In this document: piece after piece, positions 7,780-56,819 of the stretch | Numbering within the stretch: position 1 is the first letter of the stretch | Layout: each line of letters starts with the position of its first letter | From: Zygnema cylindricum | Taxonomy: Eukaryota > Streptophyta > Zygnematophyceae > Zygnematales > Zygnemataceae | Direction of reading: 5' to 3' | Length of the DNA stretch: 64,000 nucleotides | Assembly: GCA_037447655.1 (NCBI GenBank) | Contig: JBBHKE010000672.1 | Coordinates: 137,001-201,000 of the forward strand | Notes under the pieces: model-generated | What the model was told of the DNA's origin: nothing | Databases searched by the model: none | What the model saw: only the letters and a program-made list of their open reading frames with translations | Translations under genes and position numbers: made by a program

Positions 7780-10041
7780 TTACAGAAACTTGCCGTAAAG
7801 TGAATATGTAAATTTTGTCATATCGCATACCCGATTTCGGGTTGCCTCATAGTCTTCACTACCGGAAATGAAAAAAAAAAACAAATGCAAAACATACGCT
7901 CCCGCTGATTTGGCATCATTCCCATGGCTAAGGTTACAAAAACATGTAGGATAAAACCTAATTTCTATTCCTCTTCTCCCAAACACATAATTGTGGCCAA
8001 AGGCATCAACTGAATATTCACTCTTTGAAGGTGTCAAGTCTCTCGTATCATGTCGAGGACCAATTTTCACTATGACCTTATCATCTACAGTGGCAACGTA
8101 AAGATTATTTTCGGCCGCGTTAATGAAACACTTCCTACACGCGTTGATACCATTCTGTTTGCGGACCTGAATGAGAGCTTTGATTTCGTCTTTGTGACCC
8201 CAATCGAAGAAGTGATCGTAAAACTACAACAGCAGACAAAGAGTTGTTTTTTAAGATCTCGTGAACTTGCCAATGGTGTAACTGAATTACATTTTAAATA
8301 CCATACAAAAACTCATTTTTTCTACAATGGCCACTATACTTGAAACAAAATCACATAAAATCATAATGATGAATCTGCTGCAAATGTTGGTATACTCACC
8401 ACACAGGGTACACCAGGATGTGTGGGAATGTACGCATAGTCTTGTATCACTTTGTCATTCGGGAAGGGCCAATGTCCCTCTGTGGACCCCATATCGTGAC
8501 TCTCGATGAAAGTCACAGCCTTCTCAGGCCAATATCCAATCATACCTGCAAAAAATCTATCCAATCATACCTGCAAAAAATCTCCCCGTTGACATTCTCA
8601 GTAACGCTCATTTCCAGTGAGTTTTGGAAATCATAGCCAACATTTACTTACAAGCATTTTCAACTGATGGACAAAGAATTATCCTAGAATGCAATGCCAT
8701 TACTTGGAGACCATTTAACAACATCGTTGGAGGTTTTATTGGTACCTTTTTCTAATTGTTATTGTTCTAGCAATTCCGCCTACCTGGAGGATTGGTGTTA
8801 GTGTCTCGGAGTAGCCATAACTGCCCGTTGACAGCCTCTTAGAAAACACCTTTGGTTGTTAAAATCAAAAGTTGTTGATTTCCCCTGTGTGGCATTTACC
8901 CAATCCAGAAGCAGCTGTCTGTGACCATCTTGATTGTAATCAACGCCACCTCCGCCATAGCTAAGAGTTGTCCAATATTCCACTACAGAAAACAAGGGCC
9001 CTGTCCGCTCATTGTAAAGTCCTACAAAGTATCCTCCAAATCCCTTCACAAAGTCATATCGCCAACCATCAAAACCAATATCTATTTTTAGCCAGTTCAT
9101 CCAGCTTGCTAGCTCATTCTGTACACATTCATTTGTGTGGTCAATGTCTGGAGGAGCGCCATAATCCTCTCAATCCTCTACTGTATCTTGTTGACCTCTT
9201 CCTTTGTACTCAAGGTCGCCTCATACTATTGCCCATGGGCCCAAATCTAAACGCTCATCCGGAGTGCCTCTTTCAAATATGTTCCACACACCATGATCGT
9301 CTTGCTTATCTCCACACATGTGGTTGATGACAATATCTCTAATGCAACGAAAAACTGTTTTGTGCAATTTGTCGATCCCTAACTTCAACTACTCCTCGTT
9401 TCCATACTTTGACGAATTTAGGTTATATAGTTGATTAAGCTATTATCCTACACACAAAAAAAATGAGCTATCTTGATTGATTACAACTCCAAGAGCACAT
9501 GGTAAAGGGAAAAGCAAAAAAGATAATTTTCTCGCTCTGCGCGAATAAAAACAACTGTACACGAACTTAAAACATTCTAAAAATTCCTTAATGCCAAGTC
9601 AATCTTGCAAAAGACTTGTCCAATGAGTTGAAGATGAAGAGCTTCAGGCTAACAAGCTAGCTGCGATTAGTATTGTTACTAAATATATGAAATTTGTTCG
9701 CACACCAAGATTAACGACAACAGATACCAATTCTACCTTTCCTACCCTGCTTGCACAATTTGTTTCCACCATCTGGTTCTAGGGAATTTTATTTTTTTGT
9801 TGAAAGCAGAAAGTATTTCTTCAATTAAACTTCGCATATTTATTTGAATGAGTGAACACTTCTAACTGTTCGACAAAACCACTGCCTATGACAAGACCCG
9901 CACCTTACGACGCTACGAAATGGCTTGGAGGAGGCATCCACACATCAGTAATACCTGCTAACGCGATTTCCTCAGTGAGCTTTGCAAGTACATTATACCA
10001 ACCATTTTTTCATTATAGCAAGACTCCCAGTTGAAACTTTC
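7780..10041 (-). pseudogene. AMY: Plant alpha-amylase (GH13) pseudogene, four exons
   Basis: An endo-1,4-alpha-glucanase of starch breakdown. Exons read 10041-9904, 9447-8784, 8545-8400 and 8223-7780, all with GT-AG borders in compatible phase; boundaries match those I remember for plant AMY genes. Recognisable stretches are FNWES and VWMPPPSH in exon 1 and LNSSKYGNE, DIVINH and GFDGWRYDFVKG in exon 2. Exon 3 has [15 protein letters not shown] and exon 4 has YDHFFDWGHKDEI and VKIGPRHD. The catalytic triad codons survive: Asp at 9053-9055, Glu at 8978-8980, Asp at 8493-8495. The gene is broken by stops at 9905-9907, 9389-9391, 9221-9223, 9170-9172 and 8839-8841, and by frameshifts near 10010 and 8860. 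The normal C-terminus near AFGHNYVF runs on for about 50 extra codons. No signal-peptide exon is identified with confidence. Confidence 0.92.
8536..8583 (-). repeat. 25-bp duplication of the amylase exon-3 splice acceptor
   Basis: The segment ccaatcatacctgcaaaaaa plus five bases occurs at 8536-8560 and again from 8561. On the - strand this duplicates the TTTTTTGCAG|GTATGATTGG acceptor. It is probably a slippage product after the gene lost function. Confidence 0.85.
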
Positions 10042-11856: not shown

Positions 11857-11891
<35 letters not shown>

Positions 11892-12780
11892 GCATGGAAG
11901 CGAACGCGGGGCCAAGCGCTAACCTCATGGAGGGGGAGAGGGTGGAGTGTGACGCTGTCGTCACGGCCAAGGGGGGCGAGTTGTGGGGGGTGGCGCAGGC
12001 CGTGCCGCGTGGCGCTCAACTCTATCTCTCTCTCTCTCTCTTGTCTCTCTCTCTCTTCCTCTTTCTTCCTCTCCCTGGGATTGTCTCAGGGGCCAGGGGG
12101 AAGTCCGAGGACATGTGTTCGGTGGGCGGCGGCTCTAGTGAGGCGGCTGGCGGAGGCGTTAGCTGGAGGGTTGGGGCCATTGGGGAGAGTCAAATTGATA
12201 TGAGGAGGGAGGATGGGAGAGTAGGGAGGGAGAGGACCAAATAGGGGAGGGGGCGAGAGGGAGGAGGGGAGGGGGCGAGAAAGAGGAGGGGAGGGTGCGA
12301 GAGGGAGGGGAGGAACAAGGGGAGGGAAAGAGAGGAGAGGGAGAGAGGGGGGAGAGGGAGATGGAGTGGGATAATAGAGAGAAAGATAGAGTGCCAGCAA
12401 GGGAGAGAGATCGGGAGGCAGAGAAGGAAGCAATGGTGCCAAGGAGATTGTCGCTTATGGGAGGAGGGAGAGGGGGAGACTTAAATAGGGAAGAGAGGAG
12501 GGACGAGAGAAGGGGCGAGAAAAGTGAGAAGGGAGAAGCGAGGAGAAAGAGAGAGAAGAGGGAAGGGAGCTAAGGGAGAATCAAGAAATAGAATGAAGAT
12601 AGAAAAAACCGGGGTGAAAATAAAACAGAGAGGGTTTAGAAAAACATAATATGAGAATTGTTAGGGGGGAGGAGCTGAAGAGCGACAAAGGAAGAGTGGG
12701 AAAAGGGGTGGAGGAGAGGGGGTACTTATGTGATACAGAAGGAGAGTTAGGAGGATAGAAATGATGATGCATTCCCCCCC
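11160..12780. repeat. GC-rich, strand-skewed low-complexity block
   Basis: Bases 11350-11560 are C/T-rich, 11760-12000 are G-rich, and 12190-12580 are nearly pure G/A (gagggagg motifs). A short CT microsatellite lies at about 12020-12070. The long open frames here (for example 11301-12203) are artefacts of composition. The block abuts the 3' end of the methyltransferase retroelement at about 12780. Confidence 0.85.
11859..11890 (+). repeat. Homopolymer run of 32 G
   Basis: Uninterrupted G from 11859 to 11890 inside the G-rich block. It could form G-quadruplexes. The true length may differ because assemblers handle such runs poorly. Confidence 0.9.
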
Positions 12781-12784
12781 CCAG

Positions 12785-13800
12785 CTGGTTGAGACGGATG
12801 GGTTTCTGCGTAACGACCTGCTGCAAATCCGAGGCCTAAAACAAATGAGAGAGATTGATGGTCAATGACACGACCTAAAAAAATGCAACGTTGCCATTTT
12901 GTGAGACCGTGGGCAGCTGTAGTGTTGGGAAGGAAATGCATAAGGTGTTCTTTTTCTGTGGCTATAGGCTCATCTAGGCCGTCTGTGTGAATATTTCTGA
13001 AGAGCCGGGCCCATCGTTGGAAAAAACGTGAGAATGTGGGTAAGACACTAGAGTGCGAAGGACTTTGAGTGGTTGACCTGAGACGTTAATGTTGTAATTC
13101 GATGGGTGATCAGACTGGAGACATGTTTGGACTTTGTAGAAGGGAAGTAGGGTTGTCTGAATATCGATAAGATATGGTTTGAAAGAAAGATTTTCTTCTC
13201 GTAGGCGACCAATATCGATCACATTGGTCCATTTAGAACGTAATCGATGGGCTAAGAAACCATGGCAAGAGCCATCAATTATAAGAGGAGTGTCAATTAA
13301 TGCCTATATTCGCTTATAATCAGATATAACTCTAGGTTGAGGATCGTTATATGCTGCCACAATTTCCAAAAAATATCCTAAGGGTCAATCTTATGATTGC
13401 TCAAAATGGATATTCCGAAGTAGTTCAAAAAATAGTTTAGTGCGGGGATCAACCAAGCTGAGACCTTTGCCTGCTCGTGACAGGCCCTGACACTCCCAAC
13501 CGGCAAAGAGAAGATCAATTTGTTGTACATCAAAAAGGTGTTGATTTCCTATCAAACGAATGTCTTTAGGTAAAGATGTGTGCTTGTGAGCATAGGCAAA
13601 TTTTGGGAAAACATGCGGATATTGTCCGTGTAAGAGGTGTATCTGGGCTTTCCGATCTAAAGGGTAAGTGTCGACTGAGTAGTAGTGCTTGATAAGTAAT
13701 TCGTTGCTAAGGCATGAAAAAAGGGAAGTAGCTATGCTTGCGAATAGATCTAAAATGACTAGATTGTTTTGATGAGGGTTGAGCTGAGTTGGTTCCTAAT
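12785..13800 (-). pseudogene. C5-cytosine DNA methyltransferase domain of a retroelement (decayed)
   Basis: Reads 13800 down to about 12785. Family motifs appear in order. Motif I is DLFASIATSLF (DLF at 13742-13750), followed by an acidic VDTYPLDRKAQ segment. Motif IV is AGWECQGLSRAGKG, with the catalytic Cys codon at 13490-13492 in ECQ rather than PCQ. Next is DPRTKLFFELLR. The ENV-like motif is YFLEIV (GAA at 13364-13366), and a motif-VIII-like segment is AHRLRSKWTN. After a frameshift near 12990 come MHFLPNTTAAHGLTK and the motif-X-like FLGRVIDHQSLSFVLG. Stops lie at 13796-13798 (upstream), 13391-13393, 13385-13387 and 13304-13306. It lies directly downstream, in the same orientation, of a retroviral-type protease and gag, so it was part of a retroelement polyprotein. 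The family transfers a methyl group from S-adenosylmethionine to cytosine C5. This copy cannot be active. Confidence 0.82.
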
Positions 13801-13899
13801 TAATGGGAAGAAAACCGGAAGGATCTACTGAAATGAGAGGGGGAAGAGGGACTCGGGATAGGGGAATCTTGAGTGTGTATTTATAAATGTGATCAAATT

Positions 13900-14645
13900 C
13901 ACGAGAATCAATCACAAATCGTGGGTAATTGAAAAGGTCTGGCATGGCGAGGATGTTGGGCAAAATTTTCTTCGCTGATAGAGAATGGAAATTTCATATC
14001 CTACCGAATTTCTAGAGTAAGCAGGGACAAATTTGGCAACGTGAGCCATAATGGGTATGGGTTGTCAGGCGGAAATTAGAGGTAGACAGATTTTCTTTTC
14101 TCGATAGTTGGTAGAACGGTAGGAAAATGATTAATCATACATGTCAATATCGCCTCCTACTCTGAAAATCATATCTTGTCCCACAAAACACTCGTATCAC
14201 TACACTTGGTGACCAACGCGTGAGCACGGACCTCTGCAATATTAGATTCTGTACCATTTTGTAAGCTAAAACAGAGTGGACCTTTGGTAATGCCCAAAAT
14301 TTGTTCGGTAGTTCACGCTGAGGTGAGTAAATGTGTGGTAGTCGACTGAAGTTTATTGGTTGTCAAACGTAGTTTTAGTGCAAAAGATGACCCCAAAATA
14401 ACTGGTTTTGCACAGGTGTCTATAAGTGGTTATGACGGTGTGACACCATTGACTAAAAATGCACCCTTCCCATTATCCAAAAAACTGATGTGTAGGTCAA
14501 GTGAACTACGTTTTTCGGTAGAGATAGGCCTAAAAGCTTCCAGATTAAGGTACATTTGCAAAGCTTGTAACGCTGCAGATGGGACGGATGAGACTGCAGA
14601 TTTAGGGTTGCGACAATCGAAAATCATAGTAGATAAAATGCACAA
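13900..14645 (-). pseudogene. Retroviral-type aspartic protease region of the same retroelement
   Basis: The active-site region reads PLIDTCAKPVILG, with the Asp codon at 14418-14420; the canonical DTG has become DTC. A second protease segment, ALVTKCSDTSVL, then after a one-base shift GQDMIF, matches the later part of such domains. Stops at the junction and in the spacer (about 14430, 14310, 14130) show decay. The segment connects gag (upstream) with the methyltransferase (downstream) in the same orientation. Confidence 0.65.
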
Positions 14646-15503
14646 TCTTTGCTAAACCCTATAACTACGGTCAAGGATAGTGAGTGCTTTCGCCGTGATG
14701 GAGAAAGCTGTTTCGGGCCGATTGCTTAGTGTCTTTTTGGAAAATGAGAATGGGAGACGGGTGGTAGACTGTTTATCCTCACGATTATGATCAATCGTGC
14801 CCTTTTCAAACATGGTTGCCCATTTTTGGATGGTCGAATCTCGTAAAACTCGATCAGCTAGTGTGGGATGATGGACAGCTGTACGAGCCATGCCAGTTAT
14901 GTGAGTTGGCGGTTTCATTTGAGCCATAAGGGCTGCAAATTGGTCTTTGATCATGGCGGCCATTTGAGTTTGCATTTCCTCCCTCTCTTTCTCTTTTCGA
15001 GACACTTTAGGTGGAGAATCTTTTTCACGCTCTTTAACTAGTTGGACTAGTTTGGCCAATCTAGTTAGAATTCGGCCATTTCGAATCTAATTTTGATATG
15101 AAAATCTAGGGTTTTTATATGTGACAGCGATACACAAAATGGCCAGTCAATTTGCACTGTGTACAATTCGTAGATTTATCCGGACAGGTTTGAGCATCGT
15201 GCCCAATCTTGCAAAATCGGAAATAAATACGATTGGGTGGTTGATTTGGTCAGGTTTCCATGGCTGGAACCTTTGGTGACTGATTATTTGGCCTTAAGTT
15301 ACGGGGGTTTGGTAGATTGAAAGGGATAGCTTCTTTTTGAGGTGCTTTTGGCCGATCCTGGGCCTCCCAATAACAATTTGTCATTTCGTATTCTACTGCC
15401 TATTGAGCTGCGTAGTCAAAGGTAAATTTGAGACCGTATGTTTATGTAAGATGACTTTGAATAAATTTCTTCGATTGGAAAGGAAATTGTCCAACAAACA
15501 TCT
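14646..15503 (-). pseudogene. gag with two zinc knuckles, methyltransferase retroelement
   Basis: Reads 15503 down. The 5' part contains FPFQSKKFIQ and a segment typical of the end of a retrotransposon gag. Two zinc-knuckle motifs lie at about 15184-15222 (CKIGHDAQTC, first Cys replaced by Phe) and 15124-15165 (CTQCKLTGHFVYRC, a perfect CX2CX4HX4C). A charged Lys/Glu-rich region with KERE and KEKEREE follows (14652-15059). The frame is interrupted by stops and at least one shift near 15060. The upstream gag is cut at 15503/15504 by an LTR. Reverse transcriptase and integrase are not present downstream, so the element is truncated. Confidence 0.7.
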
Positions 15504-16846
15504 TGAAACTCTGAGACCTCCATAGGTCCTCAGAAGGAACAGCTTGCAAGAAGCCTCTAGGATAACCCTGACCCTTTTGTGTTTCAGCAAGAATAACTGC
15601 CACCCCAGCAGACAAAAACTCTGACCACCTTCACCCCTGTAAAGGCAAGACTCCCGTGAGTCGATAGCAAAAAGAATCTATGAATTTGCTCCCCTGAGCA
15701 GTAAGATATGGAGGGTCAAAGTTGACCTCTTGTACATAAACACTTTGGGAGAGAGGGTCCTATCTACCAATTTTTCTAAGTCCAATCTCTCTCACAAACT
15801 CTATCTACTGATATACGAAACCAATCATATTGATCTTCCGTACACAAAAGTACAGCTGTCGGTGTACTTTATGTACGAATACTGTACGACATGGCTAAAA
15901 TGTCGACACGTGGTATATCTGGATTTGCTCCTTTAATCCTCAAAGATGTCGCGATCCAAAGTCATTCTGCCACGTGTCATCCGATGTGGCGATGACTAAA
16001 AACCGCATAAATCCTCTTTCGCGATCTCGACATGCATTCCGGCCGTCTGATTAAATGCAGATTTAATCGTAGCGGTAATAAATACCTGCGCGGTATTCAT
16101 TTCGCTATCGAAACAAATGCGCAGTACTAGTTTGCTGCCCGTACCCTAATCCGTACATTTACATAACCGAACCTATGTATCCTGTAAATAGTTCCCGTTA
16201 AATAAATTTGTCAGCGTAGTAATGTTTATCTAGTTATCAAACACTATATTCTATAACACTAGTCTTAGACTAAATGGATAGAGCTAACGGTTATCGACGG
16301 ATTTAACGGCCGGTAGGTACCAGGATCAAATCTTGGATCCGACAGCTATCCTTTTAGTAAATCAGTTAATTTACTACGAAAAATCAACTAATCTACTACC
16401 CGTAAATCTCAGGATAGCATATGCAGCCATGGCTCTAGCTTCATCTCCAACTTTCAGTGACTGCAACAAGTGTGGGAGTTGAAGGGAGAAGTTAGAGGCA
16501 GACTGCCTTGGCTTCTTTTCTGCATTTTATTTTAGACCTAGAAAATACTAAACGAACCATCAATTTCTACACTCCCCTTATTTTCTAGTCAATCTTCAAT
16601 TTCAGACCACACTTCTCCCTGCAAAAAATTAGCTTAGGGGAAGGCACAGGTTTGGTCATCATATCTGCTACCATCTCGCTATCTGGTCGGTACTCTAAAC
16701 TGATTATTTTGTTTTCTACTTTCTCTCTAACAAAGCTGAGTCTAATGTCCATGGGTTTTGCTTTAAAATGATGTTAAGGATTGGCAGAAATAGCAATTGC
16801 TGCCTGATTATCACAAAAAAAATAATGCACACCACTTTTAAGGTGA

Positions 16847-16856
16847 NNNNNNNNNN
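16847..16856. other. Assembly gap (10 N)
   Basis: Ten undetermined bases inside the Copia element, at the point where the RNase H coding sequence stops. The true missing length is unknown. Confidence 0.98.
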
Positions 16857-17104
16857 GGTGGGAGATCCCATGCTTAAAAATTACCTTGATCGAAGTATAT
16901 GATCCTTTCATACTACTATCCTCGAGATACGCTTTTTTCCAAAACCCCCTCTCACTCACCTGTTAACCCCGTACGTAGTTCAGAAGCTTAAGGAGGCCCC
17001 AAACTTCCTTCGTATAAATGTTTCTTTCGTCCAGGTAGAAGTTGTCTCCTCTGTTTCCTTCTTCTCCTCCACCTGTTTCCTTTCCTTTTCCTCTGCTGGT
17101 GTGG
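16857..17104 (-). other. Unrelated sequence inside Copia element E
   Basis: It replaces the expected gag/pol sequence between the gap and the gag fragment. On the - strand it is open and joined in frame to gag, and it contains a good splice-donor-like CAG|GTGAGTGAG near 16964. It has no match to the other Copia copies here. It may be captured host sequence or an unrelated piece joined at a deletion. Confidence 0.4.
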
Positions 17105-18530
17105 TAATCGTTGAAGTGCTTTGCCGCCATATTGTTGAAATCCCAGGTTTCAGTATCATTCTTCTCGTTCCTCGGAATTGGTGACATGAATGTTGTACAT
17201 ATTGCTAATGGTGTGGTCGTCTCCTTTTCCTTTCCTTTGTCCACCTCCTCTTCTTCCTTTGTCTCCTCTGTTGAAGATGGACCTGCTTTCTTTGTAAATA
17301 TGCTTCCTTCAAACCCCGGAGGAATTCGAAGACTTGATGCATGCCCCAATTGTCCACTCACTCTCCCCCAAAACCTTTTTTCGCATAGAGCTCCTATCAT
17401 CATACTTTCCTAGTATATGAAGCTAGTTCCATTAAAAATTCGTACCCTAGAGGGTGGGCCCATAACCTGTAACTCTGAGACCTCCATAAGTCCTCAGAGT
17501 GGACAGCTTTTAAGAAGCCTCTAGGATATCCCTGACCCCTTTGTGTTTTAGCAAGAACAGCTGCCACCTTGGTAGACAATAACTCTGACCACCTTCACCA
17601 TTGTAAAGGCAAGACTCCCTTGAGTCGATAGCAAAAAGAATCTTTGAATTTGCTCCCCTTAGCAGTAAGTTATGGAGGGTTAAAGTTGACCTTTTTGTAC
17701 AGAAGCTCTCTGGGAGAGAGGGTCCTATCTCCTAATTTTTCTAAGTCCTATCTCTCTCACAGATTCTATCTACTGATGTACGGAGCCAATTAGATTACAC
17801 TTCCGTACACAAAGGTACAGCTGTCGGTGTACTTTATGTACGAACATTGTACAACATGGCCTAAATGTCGACACATGGTATATCTGGATTCGCTCCCTTA
17901 ATCCTCGGAGAAGCCGCGATCCAATGTCATTGCGCCACTTGTCATCCGATGTGGCGATGACCAAAAACCGCCAAAATCCTCTTCCGCGATCTCGACGTTT
18001 AATTCCGACCGTTCGATTAAATTCACATTTAATTGTAGCCTTAATAAATACATACGCGGTATTCGTTTCGCTAAAAAATTAAATGCGCGGTATTCGTTTC
18101 TAATCCGTACTATAATCCGTACTTTTACATTAATAGATCTATGTCTCCCGTAAACAGTTTCAGTTAAATGAATAATCCTACGTTGTAATGTTTAATTAAA
18201 TATCAAACCATATAGTATGTAACACTAGGTTTAGACTTAATGGATAAGGCTACCGGCTACCGGCAGCTTTCCTTCCGCTAGGTACCAAGATCAAATCCTG
18301 GAGGCATCATGTATTATTTTAGTAAATAAACCCCTAATGATAAATAAACTAATATTTATATTCGTAAACCTCTGGATAGCCTAGGTAGCCATGGCTCTAG
18401 CTTCTTCTCCAATTTCCCAGTGACTGCGACAAGTTTGATAGTTGGAGAGAGAAGTTAGATGTAGACTGCGTGGGCTTCTTTCTATATTTCTATTTAGACA
18501 TAGAAAATACTTTAAAAGGACCATTAATTT

Positions 18531-19181
18531 CTACACGATACACCTCGAAAAATGTTGCGGAAACTTCTTGACAGTCCTAAGGATGAGTAGTTCTTTTCCA
18601 TTCGCGTGACAATCGACGATCATCCAATTGATTACCCGAAGTCGAGTAATCTTCGTTGAAACTTGCTTAACTTTCCGGATCGACACCTGGACGTTCACGT
18701 ATTTATCACACGGTGGGTCCAAATTTTCGGTAGCAACGCCTTCCACGAGAGGATCCACGTCGAGTGATCCCATTTCCTGTGTCGAATGGTCGGGTCCTTG
18801 GTCTTCAGTACAATCCACGTCCTTTTCAGCTAAAGGTGGTAATAAACCCTCCGTAGCAGTGTTTTTCGCCGCAAAAAATGTGGTAATATGTGAAGTAATA
18901 GGCCACATATTGCAAATAATAGAGCTCAATTTTTGGCCAAAAGACGATACAAAGCAAATAATAGAGAAGCAAAAGTCAAGGTAACCGAAGAATGCGGAAA
19001 GACAGTGCCATTGTTGGACCAAACGCCGAATATATATACGAAAAGAAATAAATTTGGTGGGAAAAGGGGAGGGAAACCATTCCCCATACTTTTGGTCATC
19101 AAAATTTAAAATTTTAACATTTTTCGTATCAAAATTTGAGACGACACAAAGAAGGCGGGAAAGTTTCAAAAAGTTCGTCAA
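18531..19181 (-). CDS. Unrecognised 216-codon open frame, cut by an LTR
   Basis: The frame is open from 19181 to the border of Copia element E. The downstream half looks protein-like: acidic (EKDVDCTEDQGPDHSTQE), then RKVKQVSTKITRLRVINW and ANGKELLILRTVKKF. The N-terminal third is hydrophobic and less convincing, so translation may start near 18914. It has the same orientation as the gag-protease-methyltransferase remnant on the other side of element E, so it may be the 5' gag of that element. I found no matching target duplication to prove this. The function is unknown. Confidence 0.35.
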   Translation of the reverse strand: MTNFLKLSRLLCVVSNFDTKNVKILNFDDQKYGEWFPSPFPTKFISFRIYIRRLVQQWHCLSAFFGYLDFCFSIICFVSSFGQKLSSIICNMWPITSHITTFFAAKNTATEGLLPPLAEKDVDCTEDQGPDHSTQEMGSLDVDPLVEGVATENLDPPCDKYVNVQVSIRKVKQVSTKITRLRVINWMIVDCHANGKELLILRTVKKFPQHFSRCIV

Positions 19182-30792: not shown

Positions 30793-31841
30793 TGAAACTC
30801 TGAGACCTCCATAAGTCCTCAGAGTGGACAGCTTCCAAGAAGCCTCTAGGATAATCCTGACCCCTTTGTGTTTAAGCAAAAATAACTGCCACCCTGGCAG
30901 AAAAAAACACTGACCAACTTCACCCCTCTGAAGACAAGACTCCCCTGAGTCGATAGCAAAAAGAATCTCTGAATTTGCTCCCCTGAGCAGTAAGTTATGG
31001 AGGGTCAAAGTTGACCTTTTGTACAGAAGCTCTCTGGGAGAGGGGGTCCTATCTTCTAATTTTTCTAAGTCCTATCTCTCTCACAGACTCTATCTACTGA
31101 TGTACGGAACCAATCAGAATTGAGTTCCGTACGCAAAAGTACAGCTGCCGGTGTACTTTATGTACAGACACTGTACGACATGGCCAAAATGTCGACACAT
31201 GTCAAATTCGGATTCGGTGCCATAATCTCCGGAGTTTCCACAATCCAACGGAATTTTGCCACGCGTCATCCGATGTGGCGATGGCCACAAACCGCCGAAA
31301 TCTTCCTCCGCGATCTCGGCGCTAATCCCGGCCGTCCGATTAAATTCGGCTTTAATCGTGGCCGTAATAAATACATGCGCGGTATTTGTTTCATTTACGA
31401 AACAAATGCGCGGTACTGATTTATGTCCGTATCGTAAGTCGTACATTACATATTACTGGATCTATGTATCCCGTAATTAATTCTAGTTAAATGGTTTATC
31501 GCTTGTATACATAGTTAAATAATTATCAAACTATATGCTTGGTAACACTTCCGCTAGATGAAACGGCTAAGGCTACCGGCTACTTCGTGTCTGCCGGCCG
31601 GCAGGTACAAGGATCAAATCCTGCCGCCGGCACATACATTTTAATTAAATATATAAACCCTAATATAAAATTCCCGTAAACCTCAGGATAGCCAAGGTAG
31701 CCATGGCTCTAGCTTCCTCTCCAATTTCTCAGTGACTGCGACAAGTTTGAGAGTTGGAGAGAGAAGTTAGAGATAAACTGCCTCGACTTCTATATTTCTT
31801 TTCAGACCTAGAAAATACTAATAAAACCATTAGTTTCTACA
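30793..31841 (-). repeat. 3' LTR of Copia element A
   Basis: 1049 bp, TG...CA. The tRNA-like hairpin lies at about 31601-31627. A TATA-like TGTACAAAA is found near 31017-31023 on the - strand. Confidence 0.93.
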
Positions 31842-31854
31842 CTCCCCTTATTTT
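31842..31854 (-). promoter_or_regulatory. Polypurine tract of Copia element A
   Basis: AAAATAAGGGGAG on the element's coding strand, between the gag-pol stop codon and the 3' LTR. The same sequence stands at the corresponding place in elements B and E, and a variant in K and J. It primes plus-strand DNA synthesis. Confidence 0.85.
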
Positions 31855-34800
31855 CTAGTCAATCTTTAATTTCAGACCACACTTCTCCCTGCAAAAAATT
31901 AGTTTAGGGGAAGGCACAGGTTTGGTCATCATATCTGCTACCATCTCACTATCTGGTCTGTACTCTAAACTGATTATTTTGTTTTCTACTTTCTCTCTAA
32001 CAAAGCTGAGTCTGATGTCCATGTGTTTGGCTTTAAAATGGTGTTTAGGATAGGCAGAAATAGCGATTGCTGCCTGATTATCACAAAATATTTTCTGCAC
32101 ACCACTCTTAAGGTGACCAAGCTCACCAAGCAAAGACTTGACCCACATCAATTCTTTTACAGCAGAGCAAGAGGCCATATACTCAGCCTCCATGGTGGAC
32201 TGAGCAATAACCTTTTGCTGTTTGCTACTCCAACAGCAAGCCCCATCACCCACATATAATACATATCCAGAAGTACATCTCCTCATCGGAGCATCACCAT
32301 AACTGGCATCACTCCAAGTAGTGATGTCAGTATTCTCCCCACCCAAATGCAACCATAGATCTCTAGTTCCTACCAAGTATCTAAGGACTCTCTTAGCTGC
32401 CTCCCAATCCTTCTTAGTGGGAGCATTTAGACTTCTACTCAGCACTCCTACAGCTGCAGCTAAATCCGGCCGGGTACAATTCATAAAATAGATTAGACTT
32501 CCCACTACTTGCTTGTAAGGAATAGTCTGCATGAACTTCTGTTCTTCAGGAGATAATTCCTCGTCTAAGACTATGACTCCTTCTTCCTCACTCCCCTCAC
32601 TTCCCTTCTTCAATTCCATTGGAGTTGTACAACTATTAGCTTTATCCATTTGAAATTTTTCAAGCATGTTCCCTATTGCTTCCTTTTGAGTCAATCTTAT
32701 AATTTTTCTTTTTCGGTCTCTCTCTACTTGAATTCCCAAAATATATTTTGCTTCCCCCATATCCTTCATTTCAAATCTCCCCTTAAGATCGGTTTTCAGT
32801 TTATTAATTTTTTCCATTGATTTACTTAAAACAAGCAAATCATCAACATAAATTGCAATAAATATAAAATCTTCCTCATCTTCGAAAACATAGATTGAGT
32901 GATCTGAGCTGATCCGAATATATCCTAGACCGGTAAGAAACTCATCAAGCTTCTTATTCCACTGTCGGGGCGCCTGTTTCAAACCATAAAGAGATTTAAT
33001 CAGGTGGCATACCTTACTCTCCTCTCCTTCTTCCACAAACCCTTCGGGTTGTCGCATGAAGATCTCCTCTTCTAATTCTCCATGCAATAAGGCTGTTTTG
33101 ATGTCCATCTGGTGCACTTCCATGTCTTCCGCTGCTGCTAAACTGAGAAGTATGCGGACGGAGGGAAATCTGACCACCGGGGCAAAGGTTTCTTCGAAGT
33201 CAATTCCTTCCTTTTGTGTAAATCCCTTTGCCACTAATCTGGCCTTGTAGCGCTCGATTGTGTTATCTGGGTTCAGTTTTAGTTTGAAAACCCACTTACA
33301 ACCGATTGGTTTTCGGTTAGGTGGACAGTCCACCAGCTCCCAAGTATCGGCTGCCATGATTGAAGCCATCTCCTCATTGATGGCTGTCTTCCACCGGTTT
33401 CTTTCTGGACAAGTCATCGCCTCTCGATAAGTTTGAGGTTCATCTTGATGAGATAGTTTAGTTACCTTGTTATTAACCTGTTTTTCTTGCAGTCTTTTGC
33501 TACTTCTCCTCCCTCCCTCAAAATCTGAGGCCGGAATAGATGGTTCTTGTGGATTCTTTCGAACAAACTCGGCTTCTCCCCTATCCCTTGATTCCGAATC
33601 AATTTCCACCACGTCTTTCGCTTCGAGTAGAGTTGTCACTGGAGTTTCCACAGCCGAGTCCTTTTCGGTCTGATTTGTTCCTGCAAGAATGTCATCGTCT
33701 CTAAAACCTGGATAGTTAGGAAGCTCAAACTCATCAAAATTTTCTGACTCAAATCTGATTTTTACTGACTTTGTATATTTGAAGGGATCCACAGACTTTC
33801 CTTCATCCATAACTACTAGATGCTTTACCAAGATTATATCTTCTCTTTTTAGATCATAAACTCTATATCCTTTAACATCCTCATCATATCCTAATAAGTA
33901 TCCCGGTTTTCCTTTAGGATCTAGCTTCCAATTGGACCGATCAGTATCTAGACTGAATACTTGACTGCCGAAAACCTTTAAATGAGATAAGTCTGGTTTC
34001 CGGCCTGTCCATCTCTCATAAGGTGTTTGATCTTTTATAGCTGAAGTAAGAACTCTATTTTTGAGGTAATTAGCACAGTTCATTGCTTCTGCCCAAAACC
34101 TTTTTCCTATCTTCTTATCCGACAACATACTTCTAGCACTATCACTTAGTGTTCTATTTAACCTTTCAGCTACCCCATTCTGTTCGGGATTTTCTGGCAC
34201 TGTCTTTTGGTGTTGAACCCCATCTTCCCTCAAAAAATCCTCAAACTGGTTAGAAGTATACTCTCCACCATTGTCACTCCTTACTCTCTTGATTGGAGTT
34301 TCATGGAGTTTTTCGCTCCATGCTTTATATTGTCTAAAACAGTCCTCAGCCTCTGACTTGTTTTTCAAAAAATATACTCGGGAATACCGAGACCAATCAT
34401 CAGTTATAGTCATCATAAGTCTCTTCCCCCCCGGTGAGGGCACTCTAGCCGGTCCCCAAATATCTGTGTGTACTAGATCTAGAAGTTTTTCTCCCTTGTA
34501 GGTGGCTGTTTTTGGAAAGGGTAATCTGTGTGCTTTACCTTGAGCACACCCACTACAATCACTTATATCATCACTCTCACTGAACTGAATCCCTTCCACC
34601 ACTCCCATCTTTTTCATCTTTCTTAACTTATCTAGATTCACATGCCCAAGCCTCTTATGCCACATCATAATATCATGAACACCAGCATAATAAAGTTTCT
34701 TCGTTTCATTACTTAAGATCAGCCTAAACATCCCATGGCTACCTTTCTCAGCAATGAAATAGACATCCTCCTCAAAACTAGCAGTAAAGACTCCTTCCCT

Positions 34801-36213
34801 AGTGCTAGTGAAAAAACCCTTATCATCTAATACTGATGTAGAGATAAGATTTTTGTTCAGCTCCGGAATAAACAATACATCGGAGAATGTTAATATGGAT
34901 GTCTTTCCTTCTACTAACACTTTAAGATCTACCGATCCTACAAGAGTAGTGGTGACTATCCTCCCATCCCCGTACTTTATCTCTACGGTGGGAATCTTTC
35001 TTATCTTAGTGAACAGGTGTCTATCCTTACACATGTGCATTGAGGCACCTGAATCTATAATCCAGCCTGCTTCACCTTTCACTCCACCGTAAGCACATTT
35101 CTGCCTTCGTGGAATTTCAACCTCAGTTTTCGCCTCCAACTCCTCATCCAAAAGGAGCTCATCGTCCTCGTCCTCGGATTCCGCCTCAAGTACCTGTGTG
35201 ACAAGGGCCTTTTTCTTTCCTCTCGGGGTACCACCGGTCTGCCCCTCCTTTAACCGAAGCTCGGTTAGCTTGGTGCACTCTGCCATATAGTGCCCAGGTT
35301 TCTTACAAAAATGACATAAACCTTTGGGAGCCCTTGGTTCGAACTCGCCAACCTGTTTTTCCCGCTCCCTACCCCCATAGTTTCTGACTGGTTTCCGGGA
35401 ATCCTTGTTCCTCCAATCGGTCGCTGTTGCCAAGGCTTGGCCACTCTTTCCTCCCCTTCGGATCTCAATCGTATTCTCTCGAACGAGAATCATCCCTACC
35501 ACTGAGTTCCATATCCACCTTGAGTCCGGCAAGTCCTGCACACGGTTGACTATGTTCTCGAACTCATCAGGTAACTTCATTAGTAAACAGTTAACTTTTT
35601 CTTTTTCACTAAAAACTTTACCCGCACTCTCTAGCTCCATGAAGAGTGTAGCAAGCTCATTGCAAAAATCCAACATATTTCCCACTTTGTATACATACTC
35701 CTTAACTTTCTGATCAGCCAACTGTTGTTGCTGAATCGTACCACTTCGGTACATTTCTATGAGAGCCATCCAAAGATCGGATGCCCTCTCTACCTGCAAA
35801 TGAGGACATGCAAGTCCTTGAGTGAGATGGCGTAGGATGAAGTGTTTTGCCGCCATATTGTTGAAGTCCCAGGTTTCAGTATCATTCTCCTCGTTCCTCG
35901 GAATAGGTGACATGAATGCTAAAGCAGTTGCTATTGGTGTGGTCGCCTCCTTCTCCTTTCCTTTGTCCACCACCTCTCCTTCCTTTGTTTCCTCCGTTGA
36001 AGGTGAATCCTCTTTCCTGGTGAATCTGCTTCCTTTAAACCCTGGAGGAATTCCAAGACTTGATGGACGCCCCAATCGTCCACTCACTATCCCCCAAAAC
36101 CTTTTTTCGCATAGAGCTCCTATCATCATACTTTCCCAGTATATGAAGCCAGTTCCATTAAAGATTGGTACCCTAGAGGGTGGGCCCATAACCTGAAACT
36201 CTGAGACCTCCAT
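31855..36213 (-). CDS. Copia gag-pol polyprotein, intact (1452 aa)
   Basis: A single ORF. Gag is residues 1-330, with a zinc knuckle at 300-313 (CHFCKKPGHYMAEC). The protease has D387-S-G. The pre-integrase zinc motif is H519, H524, C553, C556. The integrase triad is D584, D647, E683, with exactly 35 residues between the last two. Reverse transcriptase spans about 950-1190 with YVDD at 1122-1125. RNase H has D1302, E1342 or E1344, and D1378. No frameshift separates gag from pol. The ATG (36211-36213) is inside the 5' LTR, 20 nt from its end, and codons 7-12 overlap the primer-binding site. The stop lies 13 bp before the 3' LTR. Every catalytic residue is present, so the polyprotein is probably functional. 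Confidence 0.95.
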   Translation of the reverse strand: MEVSEFQVMGPPSRVPIFNGTGFIYWESMMIGALCEKRFWGIVSGRLGRPSSLGIPPGFKGSRFTRKEDSPSTEETKEGEVVDKGKEKEATTPIATALAFMSPIPRNEENDTETWDFNNMAAKHFILRHLTQGLACPHLQVERASDLWMALIEMYRSGTIQQQQLADQKVKEYVYKVGNMLDFCNELATLFMELESAGKVFSEKEKVNCLLMKLPDEFENIVNRVQDLPDSRWIWNSVVGMILVRENTIEIRRGGKSGQALATATDWRNKDSRKPVRNYGGREREKQVGEFEPRAPKGLCHFCKKPGHYMAECTKLTELRLKEGQTGGTPRGKKKALVTQVLEAESEDEDDELLLDEELEAKTEVEIPRRQKCAYGGVKGEAGWIIDSGASMHMCKDRHLFTKIRKIPTVEIKYGDGRIVTTTLVGSVDLKVLVEGKTSILTFSDVLFIPELNKNLISTSVLDDKGFFTSTREGVFTASFEEDVYFIAEKGSHGMFRLILSNETKKLYYAGVHDIMMWHKRLGHVNLDKLRKMKKMGVVEGIQFSESDDISDCSGCAQGKAHRLPFPKTATYKGEKLLDLVHTDIWGPARVPSPGGKRLMMTITDDWSRYSRVYFLKNKSEAEDCFRQYKAWSEKLHETPIKRVRSDNGGEYTSNQFEDFLREDGVQHQKTVPENPEQNGVAERLNRTLSDSARSMLSDKKIGKRFWAEAMNCANYLKNRVLTSAIKDQTPYERWTGRKPDLSHLKVFGSQVFSLDTDRSNWKLDPKGKPGYLLGYDEDVKGYRVYDLKREDIILVKHLVVMDEGKSVDPFKYTKSVKIRFESENFDEFELPNYPGFRDDDILAGTNQTEKDSAVETPVTTLLEAKDVVEIDSESRDRGEAEFVRKNPQEPSIPASDFEGGRRSSKRLQEKQVNNKVTKLSHQDEPQTYREAMTCPERNRWKTAINEEMASIMAADTWELVDCPPNRKPIGCKWVFKLKLNPDNTIERYKARLVAKGFTQKEGIDFEETFAPVVRFPSVRILLSLAAAEDMEVHQMDIKTALLHGELEEEIFMRQPEGFVEEGEESKVCHLIKSLYGLKQAPRQWNKKLDEFLTGLGYIRISSDHSIYVFEDEEDFIFIAIYVDDLLVLSKSMEKINKLKTDLKGRFEMKDMGEAKYILGIQVERDRKRKIIRLTQKEAIGNMLEKFQMDKANSCTTPMELKKGSEGSEEEGVIVLDEELSPEEQKFMQTIPYKQVVGSLIYFMNCTRPDLAAAVGVLSRSLNAPTKKDWEAAKRVLRYLVGTRDLWLHLGGENTDITTWSDASYGDAPMRRCTSGYVLYVGDGACCWSSKQQKVIAQSTMEAEYMASCSAVKELMWVKSLLGELGHLKSGVQKIFCDNQAAIAISAYPKHHFKAKHMDIRLSFVREKVENKIISLEYRPDSEMVADMMTKPVPSPKLIFCREKCGLKLKID
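36179..36193 (-). promoter_or_regulatory. Primer-binding site, half-tRNA-iMet type
   Basis: GGTTATGGGCCCACC on the element strand starts at the first base after the 5' LTR. All 15 bases are complementary to the anticodon arm of plant initiator tRNA-Met as I remember it (GGUGGGCCCAUAACC). They are not complementary to the tRNA 3' end used by most plant LTR elements. Confidence 0.75.
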
Positions 36214-37242
36214 AAGTCCTTAGAGTGGACAGCTTCCAAGAAGCCTCTAGGATAATCCTGACCCCTTTGTGTTTAAGCAAAAATAACTGCCACCCTGGCA
36301 GACAAAAACTCTGACCAACTTCACCCCTGTGAAGACAAGACTCCCCTGAGTCGATAGCAAAAAGAATCTCTGAATTTGCTCCCCTGAGCAGTAAGTTATG
36401 GAGGGTCAAAGTTGACCTTTTGTACAGAAGCTCTCTGGGAGAGGGGGTCCTATCTTCTAATTTTTCTAAGTCCTATCTCTCTCACAGACTCTATCTACTG
36501 ATGTACGGAACCAATCAGAATTGAGTTCCGTACGAAAAAGTACAGCTGCCGGTGTACTTTATGTACGGACACTGTACGACATGGCCAAAATGTCGACACA
36601 TGTCAAATCCGGATTCGGTGCCATAATCTCCGGAGTTTCCACAATCCAACGGAATTTTGCCACGCGTCATCCGATGTGGCGATGGCCACAAACCGCCGAA
36701 ATCTTCCTCCGCGATCTCGACGCTAATCCCGGCCGTCCGATTAAATTCGGCTTTAATCGTGGCCGTAATAAATACATGCGCGGTATTTGTTTCATTTACG
36801 AAACAAATGCGCGGTACTGATTTATGTCCGTACCGTAAGTCGTACATTACATATTACTGGATCTATGTATCCCGTAATTAATTCTAGTTAAATGGTTTAT
36901 TCTTTGTATACATAGTTAAATAATTATCAAACTATATGCTTGGTAACACTTCCGCTAGATGAAAAGGCTAAGGCTACCGGCTACTTCGTGTCTGCCGGCC
37001 GGCAGGTACAAGGATCAAATCCTGCCGCCGGCACATACATTTTAATTAAATATATAAACCCTAATATAAAATTCCCGTAAACCTCAGGATAGCCAAGGTA
37101 GCCATGGCTCTAGCTTCCTCTCCAATTTCTCAGTGACTGCGACAAGTTTGAGAGTTGGAGAGAGAAGTTAGAGATAGACTGCCTCGACTTCTATATTTCT
37201 TTTCAGACCTAGAAAATACTAATAAAACCATTAGTTTCTACA
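36194..37242 (-). repeat. 5' LTR of Copia element A
   Basis: 1049 bp. It includes the first 20 nt of the gag-pol ORF at its 3' end. The tRNA-like hairpin lies at about 37002-37028. Confidence 0.93.
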
Positions 37243-39950: not shown

Positions 39951-42335
39951 AGCTGGAGCTGCAGCAGTAGTTGTAGAAGTAGAGATGACTATAACAAAAG
40001 CTTAACGAGAATCTTATCAAATACCAGTTTTTCACTCACTAAAGAATCTGATTCACTTGTCTAATCTACACCAAATTCAGCATTCAACTAAATCACCATA
40101 GATACTGTCAACTCCCAAAATTAAAACACAATTGAACTAGTAAACCATAAGATATGGAATTTGTAAATTTCCAAAATAATGTATTTAAATTTCCATATTC
40201 CTATAACAGGATAGCAAAATTTCTCTAAGTCCTAAACTTTATAAACTGAGTGAGTATTTACTGCTCACTAGCAAATCAAATGCCAACACCTGGTTGTGTA
40301 GATCAAATCAGATGTTGACACGTGACACTGTAGTACTATACTATAAAATGACAAGGTACCTAAACTGTACGTCACTTTACACAAAGTAATTTTAAACCTG
40401 TATTTGCTACTAGTCGTAATCTTTATAGTGAAAAACAATTTAATAATGAGCTAAACTACAACAAAGTGTATTCACGTATTTACAAAATAAGAAGCCATAC
40501 AAATAATGTTATTGTCCCTTAGTCTTCGTCTGTCATAAAAGTTCAGGCAACTATAGTTCTGAAGTACGGAGCACATGAGTACGTACATGGTGCTTAGTCA
40601 ATTGTGGTCCCTGCTCGAATCGTGTGTGTCAACTTGATTCGTATCAACGATTCTTTATTGTTCCGTACATTTTTCCTAGATGTTTGCTTTCTACTCCGTC
40701 TGTCCTATTCACAGAGTTCGCTCGTTCGATGATTAACATGTGAAAGTTAGTGTCGGCGCCTTTCCAAAATATTTGCTCAATCCTCTAATGCCGACGTTTG
40801 TCCCTCTAGAAGTAGAATACACTCTATTGTCTTTTTGCTATTGCAACACTAACAAAGGTAGTTGGGATTGTAGGTGATGGCAATTGTTGCCAGGTTGTCA
40901 CACCTGATGACCTAGGGTCTAGTTTGCATGTATCATAATTCCAATGAAAGTGCTTTTACCCATAAGAGTTCTTTGAGGGCAAAATTTGCTACCATATATT
41001 CTTACTCTATTGCTGACAGAGTTGTGACCTTCTAAAGCTTGCTGCTCCAGTAGCATGTTCCATTTTCAATTTGCAAAACAAAGTTAGCTATCGATTTTTT
41101 CTAGGCATATCGCCATAGCTAGTATGGCTCAAAAATTGCAGTTTCACTCCGATTCCTTGCCAAGTATCTCAAAAACCTTTTTGCAGCTTCCCAGTCTTCC
41201 ATTTTCGGATTTTGCAGACTTCTACTTTTATCAAGCCTCGTACAATTCACATAAAAGATGAGGCTTCCAAAAACCTTCCTGTATGGTTTTGAGGCCACTA
41301 AATCCTACTCCGTTGACCCTAGATTCTCACTGACAATAATACCTGAATTTGAGTCACTTCTCCTAATTTTTGCCTGATCTCCATAAGAGTTACATTCCCT
41401 TTAACATCCTTCATTTCAAACTTTTCAAGCATATTTCATATAGCCTATTTTTTAGTCAACATAATCAGTTTTTTATTTTTATCTCTCTCTACTTATATCC
41501 CTAAGATATACTTGGCCTCACCGATGTCCTTCATCTCAAATCTAGATTTTAATGCTACTTTAATGCAATTTATTTCACTAATATTTTTGCTGATAAGTAA
41601 CACATCATCTACATATAGAACAATATAAAGTACTCAATCCTAACCTTGCAAAACTTGTAGAGAGTGATCTAAACTAATTCTTTTGAAAGCGAGTCTAGTT
41701 AAGAATTCATCCAATTTCAAGTTCCATTGTCTACGGGCTTGTTTCAGCCTATAGAAAGATTTCAACAATTTACACACTAACTTCTTTTTCCTTTTATCTT
41801 ATAAATTTCCAGTTGCTGCATATAGATAGTTTCCTCAAGATCTCCTTGCAAAAAATATATTTTGACATCCATTTGATTAACTTCTATATTTTCAATTGCA
41901 ACTAGACTAAACAAAATTTTGACAATTGGAAACCTTACCACAAAAGAGAAGGTCTCCTCAAAGTCAACCCTTTCTTTTTGATTGTACCCCTTGGCCACAA
42001 GTCTGGCCTTGTACCTTATATTTTCAATGGTACTGTCTGGATTTAACTTCACCTTGAGCACCCATTTGCTGCTGATGGCTGTTTTGTCCACAGGAAGATC
42101 TACCAACTCCCATGTTTGTGCCTCCGTTATGGATTTCATTTCGTCATTGGCTGCCTCAATCTTGTGGGTTCTTTTGAATGATGAAAATACTTCTCGTTTA
42201 GTCTGAGGTTTTCCAAAGACAGCAGAGTTGGCAAAGTGTGAACTTGCTTGTAGACAGCAACGAGATCTCTTTCTCCCCGGAAATTCTGAGGTTGAGATCG
42301 ACAAATATCTTCTGTTCATCTTCTGTTTTTTAACT
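39950..42335 (-). mobile_element. Copia element G1 (-), truncated
   Basis: An LTR of the H/G subfamily (about 39950-40860) is joined by a deletion to RNase H (about 40865-41300). Reverse transcriptase remnants follow at 41400-42319 (WVLKVKLNPD, RLVAKGYNQ). Everything 5' of reverse transcriptase is missing. The RNase H here preserves the uninterrupted version (gagggcaaaatttgctacc, about 40975-40993) of the site that holds the 1.33-kb insertion at 49530. Confidence 0.7.
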
Positions 42336-43187
42336 TGTTGAGTATGCTTCGCGAGTGGTTCAACATGCTACATGTATGGTACTTTAATTTCTCTGTCCTA
42401 AAATTTATGCACTTTGTGAGTATCTACTGCTCACTATCAAATCAGATACTAACTCTTGGCATTGTAGTACTGTACTATAAAATGACAAGGTACCTTAACC
42501 ATACGTCACTATACTCGAAGTAATTCCAAAAGACCTTTTTGCTACTAGCCCTAATCTCTATAGTGAAACATAATTTAATAATGCGCTTAACTGCAACAAA
42601 GTGTTTTCACGTATTTAGAGAATAGGAAGCCGTACAGATAATGTTATTGTTGCTTGGTCTTTATTGGTCATAGAAGTTTAGGCGATTGTGGTCCTAAAGT
42701 AAAAAGCACCTAAGGACGTATAGTGTCTTTAGTCACTTGTGGTCCCCGCTTGAATCGCATCATTCTACTCGATTCATATCAATGATTCAATATTGTATGG
42801 TACAGAACATTTTTCCTAGATGTCTGCTTTTGAATTCATCCGTGCCATTATCAGAGTCCGCTCGGTCGATAATTGACATTTGAAAGTTAATGTCGGCGCC
42901 TTTCCAAAATATTTGCTCAATCCTCCAATGCCGACTCTTGCCCCTCTAGAAGTAGAATACACTATGTTGTCCTTTTGCTATTGTAACATTAGTAAAAGTA
43001 AGTATTACAACTGACTTAGACCAAAATTATTCTAAGTCCTTAACCTCTCCTCACATCCCTCTTTATTGAGGACAAAGATTTTAAATCCAACACTCCCCTA
43101 GAGCTTTAGACTTAGATATTCACTTAGCCAAATAACATCTCTGCAGAATTGTAATTATGGTGCAGGTAGAGCTTTATTTAGCAAATT

Positions 43188-49100: not shown

Positions 49101-49242
49101 CTCTTTATCCTTCAGTGACTACAACAAGTATGGTGGCTAGAGAGAGAGAAGGTGGAGGCGGGCAGTCTGCCATTTTCTTTGCCATTTTATATTGATATAT
49201 TTAGACCTAAAAAATACTTTATAAATCTACCGAATTTTGACA
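43188..49242 (-). mobile_element. Copia element K (-), degraded but complete in outline
   Basis: 3' LTR 43188-44224 and 5' LTR 48203-49242, about 1.04 kb each. Target duplication aaatt / atatt (four of five). Primer-binding site 48188-48202 (14 of 15 bases as in element A). A TATA box (TATAAAA, - strand) is present in both LTRs at 43402-43408 and 48417-48423. Confidence 0.88.
44225..48222 (-). pseudogene. gag-pol remnant of Copia element K
   Basis: From 48222 down: gag (47528-48222, starting MEDIELQVMSPPSRV), protease (SMHMCCDKHY, about 47030-47060), integrase (46054-46740), reverse transcriptase (45205-45650) and RNase H (44238-45052). Compared with element J, about 340 bp of pre-integrase and integrase are missing near 46725. 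Many stops. The ATG is again exactly 20 nt inside the LTR. Confidence 0.85.
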
Positions 49243-49520
49243 ATATTTGCTACCATCTTTACATCAACTAAATAACACAATTTTATGACTTTGGCAACCA
49301 CCTTTTCTCGAACAAAATGTAGCTTGACATCCATGTGCTTACTTTACCTTTTCTCGAACAAAATGTATCTTGACATCCATGTGCTTCCTCTTAAAATGAT
49401 AGCTAGGTATGGAGGCGATGGGAATGGTTGCGTGGTTGTAACACTAGTTGACCTAGGGTCCAGTCTGTATGTATCATAATTCCTATAAAAGTGCATTTAC
49501 CCATAAGAGTTCTTTGAGGG

Positions 49521-50869: not shown

Positions 50870-51148
50870 CTACCATATATTGTTACTCCATTGTTGACTA
50901 CGTTGTGACCTTCTGAAGCTTGTTGCTCGAGCATCAAGTTCCGTTTCCAATTTACAAAACAAAGCTAGTTGTCGATTTTATGATAGGCATGTCGCCATAG
51001 CTAGCATCGCTCCAAGAATGCAGTTTCACTTATTCTTCTCCAAGAACCAGTTTGAGGTTCCATTCCTCCCAAGTATCTTAGAACCCTCTTTGCACCTTCG
51101 TAGTCTGCATTTTATGGATTTTGCAGACTAATACTTAGCAGCAGCAAT

Positions 51149-56574: not shown

Positions 56575-56819
56575 ATTTTGAGGGGCTGGTGGTCCGTAAT
56601 AAGGGTGAAATGTACTCCATAGAGGTAAGTCCTGAAGTGCTGGATGGCCCATACTGCAACGAGTAATTCCCCGTGGTTACTACTATTATTCCCCTCGGCC
56701 CTGTTATTGCTTTGGCTGGCGTAAGCCACTACGTATTCAGCCCCTGCATCGTCCAATTGAGCCAACACTGCTCCCAATCCGAACTTGCTCCAATCAGTGT
56801 AAAGGAGAAAAGGTCGCTG
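56575..56819 (-). pseudogene. Ty3/gypsy RNase H fragment (part of element I)
   Basis: Encodes LGAVLAQLDDAGAEYVVAYA and FTLITDHQPLK, typical of Ty3/gypsy RNase H, preceded by FLLYTDWSKFG. It is the direct continuation of the reverse transcriptase at 62971-64000, with Copia H inserted between. At 56574/56575 it ends in mid-domain against the Copia J LTR, without any gypsy LTR. Confidence 0.85.

Follow-up and report, generated by a model that had tools for sequence, protein, structure and literature searches.

The closest described system is KnitGypsy-Dnmt3, an LTR Gypsy element of Klebsormidium nitens that carries a Dnmt3 within its Pol, so that DNMT-bearing Gypsy elements are, as a kind, already known from a charophyte; a DIRS-like repeat structure is also reported for this element (PMC5890265, as far as its available text goes). 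The same text describes SymbioDIRS-Dnmt3 and SymbioLINE-Dnmt of Symbiodinium, which likewise combine a cytosine methyltransferase with a retrotransposon, of the Dnmt3 class in the DIRS elements; the precedent that the earlier note on this DNA had mentioned, methyltransferases in retrotransposons of a dinoflagellate and a charophyte, is therefore real (PMC5890265). These are other classes of element than the one presented here, the former being a DIRS with a tyrosine recombinase and the latter a LINE, and no gag-aspartic protease part is described for either in the available text of PMC5890265. DIRS-like elements with Dam-like methyltransferases are likewise retroelements joined to a DNA methyltransferase, which in their case is an N6-adenine enzyme, structurally unrelated to the C5-methyltransferases (PMC5890265, same text). 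In the accessible parts of two further papers, a hypothesis of 2019 states that Ty3/Gypsy and DIRS elements coding Dam- or Dcm-type methylases occur in a large number of eukaryotes, green algae and charophytes among them, and are absent from land plants such as tracheophytes (PMC6338049), and a study of 2025 reports members of DNMT3 in streptophyte and dinoflagellate retrotransposons, naming the LTR Copia and DIRS families (PMC12344493). By title and abstract, no second plant case of a methyltransferase-bearing retrotransposon was found in the open-licence literature. Outside the retroelements, the phage C5-methyltransferases of AP013541.1 and MZ892991.1 share a DPRS.LFFE..R stretch and the core with the present enzyme, at about 30% identity; unlike it, they are free-standing genes with a PCQ loop, coding a protein without retroelement domains.

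The window, that is the whole 64-kb stretch of DNA analysed here (GC about 40%), contains a decayed pol fragment of an LTR retrotransposon with a C5-cytosine methyltransferase (MTase). Like KnitGypsy-Dnmt3, it appears to be a gypsy-type LTR element from the plant lineage whose Pol contains a Dnmt3-like MTase; unlike that element, as far as its published description goes, the window copy is dead, and it lies in DNA of about 40% GC. The K. nitens genome has about 52% GC, and on this difference the host is probably not Klebsormidium. With a probability of about 60%, a figure that strikes a balance between a nearly certain anatomy and a self-methylation judged less likely than not, the locus is read here as a dead fragment of a green-plant Ty3/gypsy-type element in which a Dnmt3-like MTase, placed between protease and reverse transcriptase (RT) in Pol, would have methylated the element's own cDNA. 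What is added to the known cases is probably one more plant genome beside Klebsormidium and, as read from aligned sequences, the junctions protease-MTase and MTase-RT in Pol, together with an ECQ loop in motif IV that is shared with three related proteins, P0001, P0002 and the distant P0006.

The pol fragment and its setting

Three-frame translation of the minus strand from 15503 to 12758 gives a gag tail, an aspartic protease, a linker and the MTase domain (Table 1), with the gag knuckle and the protease lying upstream of the MTase in one orientation. Both ends of the fragment are truncated, and it stops short of the RT, which the fragment itself lacks. Its upper edge, 15503, is the end of a Ty1/copia LTR, as in the span 12785..15503 given by the earlier note; the lower edge lies nearer 12758 than 12785, according to the alignment of P0003. 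The same note had called the copy dead, and indeed stops occur in four out of five reading pieces (4, 3, 2, 4 and 0 per piece, with the protease piece taken from 14660 and one gag stop being the last letter of the gag piece), in addition to several frame changes.

Table 1. Features of the fragment and of the element that adjoins it, in window coordinates.
Feature	Position	Strand	Evidence or remark
Internally deleted Ty1/copia element	15504..18535	-	its 3' LTR borders directly on the fragment, at 15503
gag C-terminal remnant	15113..15477	-	frame-tracked translation
Degenerate knuckle, first Cys missing	15225-15184	-	translation
Canonical CCHC knuckle	15165-15124	-	pattern count and random control
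Retroviral-type aspartic protease, decayed	14134..14531	-	tblastn with P0002 and P0005
C5-cytosine methyltransferase domain, Dnmt3-like (by sequence likeness), decayed	12758..13873	-	PF00145; tblastn with P0001, P0003 and P0007
Motif I, VILDLF	13742..13759	-	translation and alignment
Motif IV region, IDLLFAGWECQGLSRAGKG...DPRTKLFFELLRNI	13404..13519	-	ECQ for PCQ at 13495-13487
Motif VI, FLEIV	13358..13372	-	translation and alignment
Motif VIII, AHRLRSKWTN	13223..13252	-	sole AHRxRxxWxN match in the window
Motif X-like end, HGLTKWQRCIFLGRVID	12861..12911	-	translation and alignment

Two gag zinc knuckles had been proposed; one is indeed a canonical CCHC knuckle and the other is degenerate, so that the claim of two intact knuckles does not stand, and the gag piece as a whole matched no Pfam family. 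The pattern C-x2-C-x3-GH-x4-C has three matches across the window, of which the two besides this knuckle (29666 and 35316) belong to copia gag, and none in 60 Markov-1 random windows. The proposed aspartic protease motif is borne out by tblastn of P0002, which aligns at 14531-14184(-) with 32% identity (E=8.6e-14); P0005 aligns to the same protease with E=7.3e-12, and the Pfam model Asp_protease_2 gives E=0.032, under its cut-off. The active site has decayed, reading LIDTCAKP for LIDTGAKP (DTCA where the catalytic sequence is DTGA), and the frame changes near 14190.

In the MTase domain, a stop-to-stop open reading frame (ORF) of 134 amino acids at 13391-13795(-) matches PF00145 with E=1.8e-7 (31.3 bits versus a cut-off of 22). 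The read-through of the domain, which is interrupted by stops and by a frame change at about 13004, gives 29.1 bits with the same model (E=8.6e-7) and 30.8 bits with NCBIfam TIGR00675 dcm (E=2.3e-7, under the model cut-off of 100.65). By tblastn on the unedited window, P0001 aligns at 13873-13004(-) with 38% identity (E=2.3e-53), its continuation at 13004-12927 being weak alone (E=0.058), and the end of the domain is matched by P0003 (to 12758), P0007 (to 12795) and P0009. Motifs I, IV, VI, VIII and X, in the usual numbering, which is also that of the accessible part of PMC2729998, follow one another in family order in the translation and the alignments; the DLF motif I, Cys-Gln loop, FLEIV, AHRLRSKW and motif X-like end, announced in that order from the bare sequence, were all recovered by frame-tracked translation. 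The description of the domain as full-length is accurate for motif coverage and does not hold for a readable gene. Motif VI reads EIV in the window, ENV in five of the six relatives that cover it (P0001-P0004 and P0006) and KNV in P0008, and the motif VIII pattern AHRxRxxWxN is absent from 20 random windows. Chance, or over-reading of motifs, was ruled out by the PF00145 score, the tblastn alignments of P0001 and P0002 and the random-window controls. The observation behind the claim of a retroelement with its own C5-MTase is thus confirmed by the PF00145 match and the alignments of these two proteins to unedited DNA, and the claim itself is supported by the fused relatives described below.

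The copia element that adjoins the fragment has LTRs at 15504-16572 and 17468-18535, 82% alike, and no target-site duplication was found at 15504-18535; for this reason the sequence above 18535 is not claimed as the missing 5' part. Ten N at 16847-16856, inside this element, are probably an assembly gap. On the other side, just 3' of the MTase fragment and within 11859-12784, the DNA is of low complexity and pyrimidine-rich on the minus strand, with a run of 32 G at 11859-11890. Elsewhere in the window, an intact-looking Ty1/copia element at 30793-37242(-), with an unbroken ORF of 1454 amino acids and the target duplication CTCTC on both sides, sits inside the LTR of a further copy and is probably a recent insertion, since one 300-base stretch of its LTRs is 99% alike. 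Several more diverged copia copies lie in the same orientation at 41300-60500(-), and the older copia stretch 52360-55840 has a CpG observed/expected ratio of 0.36 versus 0.66 for the intact element. At the window edge, 62943-63998(-) codes a gypsy-type RT with a few frame breaks, and what lies upstream of it, where an MTase would be expected, falls outside the window; the RT of P0009 aligns to it at 63998-62943(-) with 37% identity (E=2e-62), a value that seems ordinary between gypsy RTs. This RT, some 48 kb off and with many elements between, is not claimed as part of the MTase element. The window also contains, at 8798-9169(-), a plant-type alpha-amylase exon whose closest match is barley alpha-amylase (E=1.4e-35; the Pfam match is under cut-off), as well as a kinase that matches best, among PDB chains, a LysM receptor kinase of plants. 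These two genes mark the host as a green plant.

Related proteins and the Pol fusion

A protein search with the 134-residue ORF alone gave no match, and one with the read-through, in which the MTase part was scored, yielded a single match among 4701 candidates, P0001 (503 amino acids, E=9.3e-53, 37% identity over 80%). A search with a two-row alignment, scoring only the 7997 candidates that share most words, returned nine relatives at E<=0.01, P0001 included; the source is 'ena' for seven of them and 'jgi' for two. The earlier note would have been refuted had no copy joined the domain to gag/pol; among the nine proteins, seven combine MTase sequence with that of a protease or an RT within a single ORF, four on the protease side (P0001, P0002, P0005 and P0008) and three on the RT side (P0003, P0007 and P0009). 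P0001 is one ORF running from within a retroviral-type protease into the MTase, the protease end being recognized by alignment and not by Pfam. In P0002 both PF13975 (4.2e-7) and PF00145 (1.3e-7) are over cut-off; P0005 has Asp_protease_2 over cut-off (2.4e-5), followed by an MTase start identified by alignment, and P0008 has PF00145 at 4.4e-9 with protease models at 1e-4 and 3.5e-4, under cut-off. On the other side of the domain, P0009 carries RVT_1 (E=3.5e-26) in frame with an MTase end seen by alignment only, while in P0003 and P0007 the MTase end is likewise seen by alignment only and the RT start by alignment with P0009. P0003 and P0005, each on a 9099-base contig, may be one element. The remaining two are P0004, an MTase alone and without motif I, and P0006, in which the MTase is recognized at PF00145 E=0.025, under cut-off, plus a tail.

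These one-ORF junctions in seven relatives make it almost certain, as judged from aligned sequences, that the order protease-MTase-RT is the element's own anatomy and not a chance neighbourhood. It is extremely improbable that an ordinary host methyltransferase gene, or a retrocopy of one, landed beside an unrelated gag/protease fragment; such an accident would suit the position of the fragment, which has a copia element on one side and low-complexity DNA on the other and lies in a window crowded with nested elements, but it was ruled out by the fused relatives, in which, barring gene-calling or assembly errors in every one of them, both kinds of junction recur within single ORFs of other proteins, and the protease and MTase pieces of the window both align to one protein, P0002. 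The class, Ty3/gypsy-type rather than another kind of LTR element, is inferred from the RVT_1-type RT of P0009, an integrase not being reached by any of the nine relatives.

The relatives are readable ORFs and at most putative working genes, not all of them whole. P0001 and P0002, which are 55-64% identical depending on the alignment, may be damaged copies too, to judge from their sequences: P0001 is without the motif X end, and P0002 stops before motif X and reads HPLR at a site that is HRLR in most of the others. Of the two jgi proteins, P0008, on the longest contig (143388 bases), is a protease-MTase with PCQ and P0006 an MTase with ECQ; from these two, the family of MTase-bearing retroelements seems wider than one alga. 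Pattern searches for relatives gave 2 and 19 matches in IMG/VR and 191 in GTDB genomes, none of them confirmed. P0001 matched 69 of 50,697 phage records, all below 60% identity and none covering 80% of P0001; among the matches listed (ten of the 69), the annotations are DNA methylases or methyltransferases.

Class and donor of the methyltransferase

Searches of PDB sequences returned DNMT3A or 3C first for the read-through (E=2.4e-4), P0001 (1.7e-5), P0004 (1.3e-8) and P0008 (2.2e-5), followed by HaeIII or HhaI. DRM2 was matched by P0004 (E=0.0034), and weak matches were given by P0008 to a DRM-type chain (1.7) and by P0004 to DNMT2 (0.65); no DNMT1, MET1 or CMT chain was present in the PDB lists of these four queries. 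With the 134-residue ORF alone, HhaI came first (E=0.053) and DNMT3A last (E=0.84), all these matches being weak. A fold search with the low-confidence P0001 model gave DNMT3A/B/C in all of the best 50 of 83 matches at E<=0.001. The sequence searches, with the low-confidence fold search in support, thus suggest a Dnmt3-like MTase, for which the closest solved structures are those of DNMT3.

In a ten-row tree, the window copy groups with P0001, P0002 and P0003 at 95/95 (92/95 once the residue in motif IV is masked); P0006 joins this group at 81/86, a position lost after masking. A second tree, with five phage MTases and without P0003, exhibited a 99/98 split between six retroelement MTases and the DNMT3 and phage enzymes together; it is unrooted, based on 132 columns, carries a long-branch warning and leaves out plant DNMT3, DRM, MET1 and CMT.

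Trees and identities are compatible with two donors, and the MTase may have come from a host DNMT3 or from a viral enzyme. That it derives from a phage- or virus-type enzyme, which the element then carried among algae and plants, would agree with the 99/98 split, and with the identities over motifs IV-VIII in the tree alignment, where the window copy, P0001 and P0002 share 28-33% of residues with all but one of the five phage MTases and 23-30% with DNMT3A/B/C. However, in another alignment the same three sequences are 26-33% identical to DNMT3A/B/C, so the difference depends on the alignment, which lowers the odds of a viral donor; the fifth phage MTase is only 23-24% identical, and the tree, unrooted, short and with long branches, is one without plant DNMT3 or DRM. 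In addition, the published tree, in the available text, assigns the elements of Klebsormidium to a divergent clade of Dnmt3 (PMC5890265). Altogether, a viral donor is considered unlikely, at perhaps one chance against several.

Motif IV loop and proposed function

In a living element, the MTase would be cut free by the protease within the virus-like particle, along with the rest of the Pol products. The enzyme could then methylate the new cDNA, either ahead of integration or directly afterwards, and the copy would pass for host DNA with its normal methylation. In this scheme we infer the cleavage by the protease, the activity of the enzyme, its substrate and the benefit. Self-methylation of cDNA, as a part of the main reading, is put forward tentatively, as somewhat less likely than not, by analogy with the same proposal made for SymbioDIRS-Dnmt3; the Symbiodinium DIRS Dnmt3s gave de novo CG methylation in yeast, while KnitGypsy-Dnmt3 gave no methylation there, a result that its authors call inconclusive (PMC5890265, available text). 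The fragment shows no CpG depletion that could be taken as a methylation footprint: the observed/expected ratios, given without a significance test, are 0.79 for the fragment, 0.69 for the window, 0.66 for the intact copia element and 0.78 for the deleted one next to the fragment, and TpG is slightly raised in the fragment (1.18 versus 1.10).

Against self-methylation stands, besides this lack of CpG depletion, the ECQ loop, which may abolish or alter catalysis. DNMTs have a Pro-Cys dipeptide in motif IV (PMC2729998, accessible part), and the activity of the MTase is uncertain because ECQ here replaces PCQ. Glu-Cys is found in four of the six sequences that cover this position (the window copy, P0001, P0002 and P0006), and PCQ in P0004 and P0008; the position lies outside the coverage of P0003, P0005, P0007 and P0009. 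PCQ was also present in six of six phage MTases read, from the ten listed among the 69 matched records, and DNMT3A/B/C have PCN. ECQ is common to the window copy, P0001 and P0002 at 38-64% identity, so that the loop is, on this comparison, not a product of decay in the window copy alone. Cys-Gln, ENV and AHRLR are all intact in P0001, the catalytic Cys and the ENV Glu are retained in P0001, P0002 and P0006, and the conservation of Cys-Gln and ENV at the protein level in both P0001 and P0002 suggests selection. The P0001 model has a mean pLDDT of 47.9, and its residues 279-297, including the odd Glu, are under 50.

The branch of plant or algal gypsy elements that includes the window copy, P0001 and P0002 might have fixed a Glu next to the catalytic Cys and kept it during divergence, with a changed chemistry or substrate (for example an RNA-DNA hybrid) or with a non-catalytic role in packaging or in the choice of the integration site; this is rather improbable, and its odds are lowered a little because P0001 and P0002 may themselves be damaged copies. 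A competing explanation, doubtful and still deserving some weight, is that the ECQ branch is no longer a normal methyltransferase and would serve as a module that binds DNA or RNA or recruits partners, or act by another chemistry or on another substrate. In mammals, DNMT3L is a comparable kept module. The replacement of an active-site Pro by Glu in four of the six covering sequences, next to the Pro kept in P0004, P0008, the phage enzymes and DNMT3A/B/C, speaks for such a change, as does the negative, though inconclusive, yeast test of KnitGypsy-Dnmt3 (PMC5890265, available text); on the other hand, the catalytic Cys and the ENV Glu are still present in P0001, P0002 and P0006, and P0006 is a long branch of unsure place in the tree.

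For the Dnmt3-like MTase of a Ty3/gypsy-type element, which is the reading preferred here, the separate proteins reveal the place of the domain within Pol. Should the enzyme of Klebsormidium share the ECQ loop, this could bear on its negative result in yeast. DNA methylation is a main weapon of plants against transposons, and for an element that supplies a de novo-type methyltransferase of its own the question is whether it would use the enzyme to disguise itself, to silence itself and thereby spare its host, or for some other purpose.
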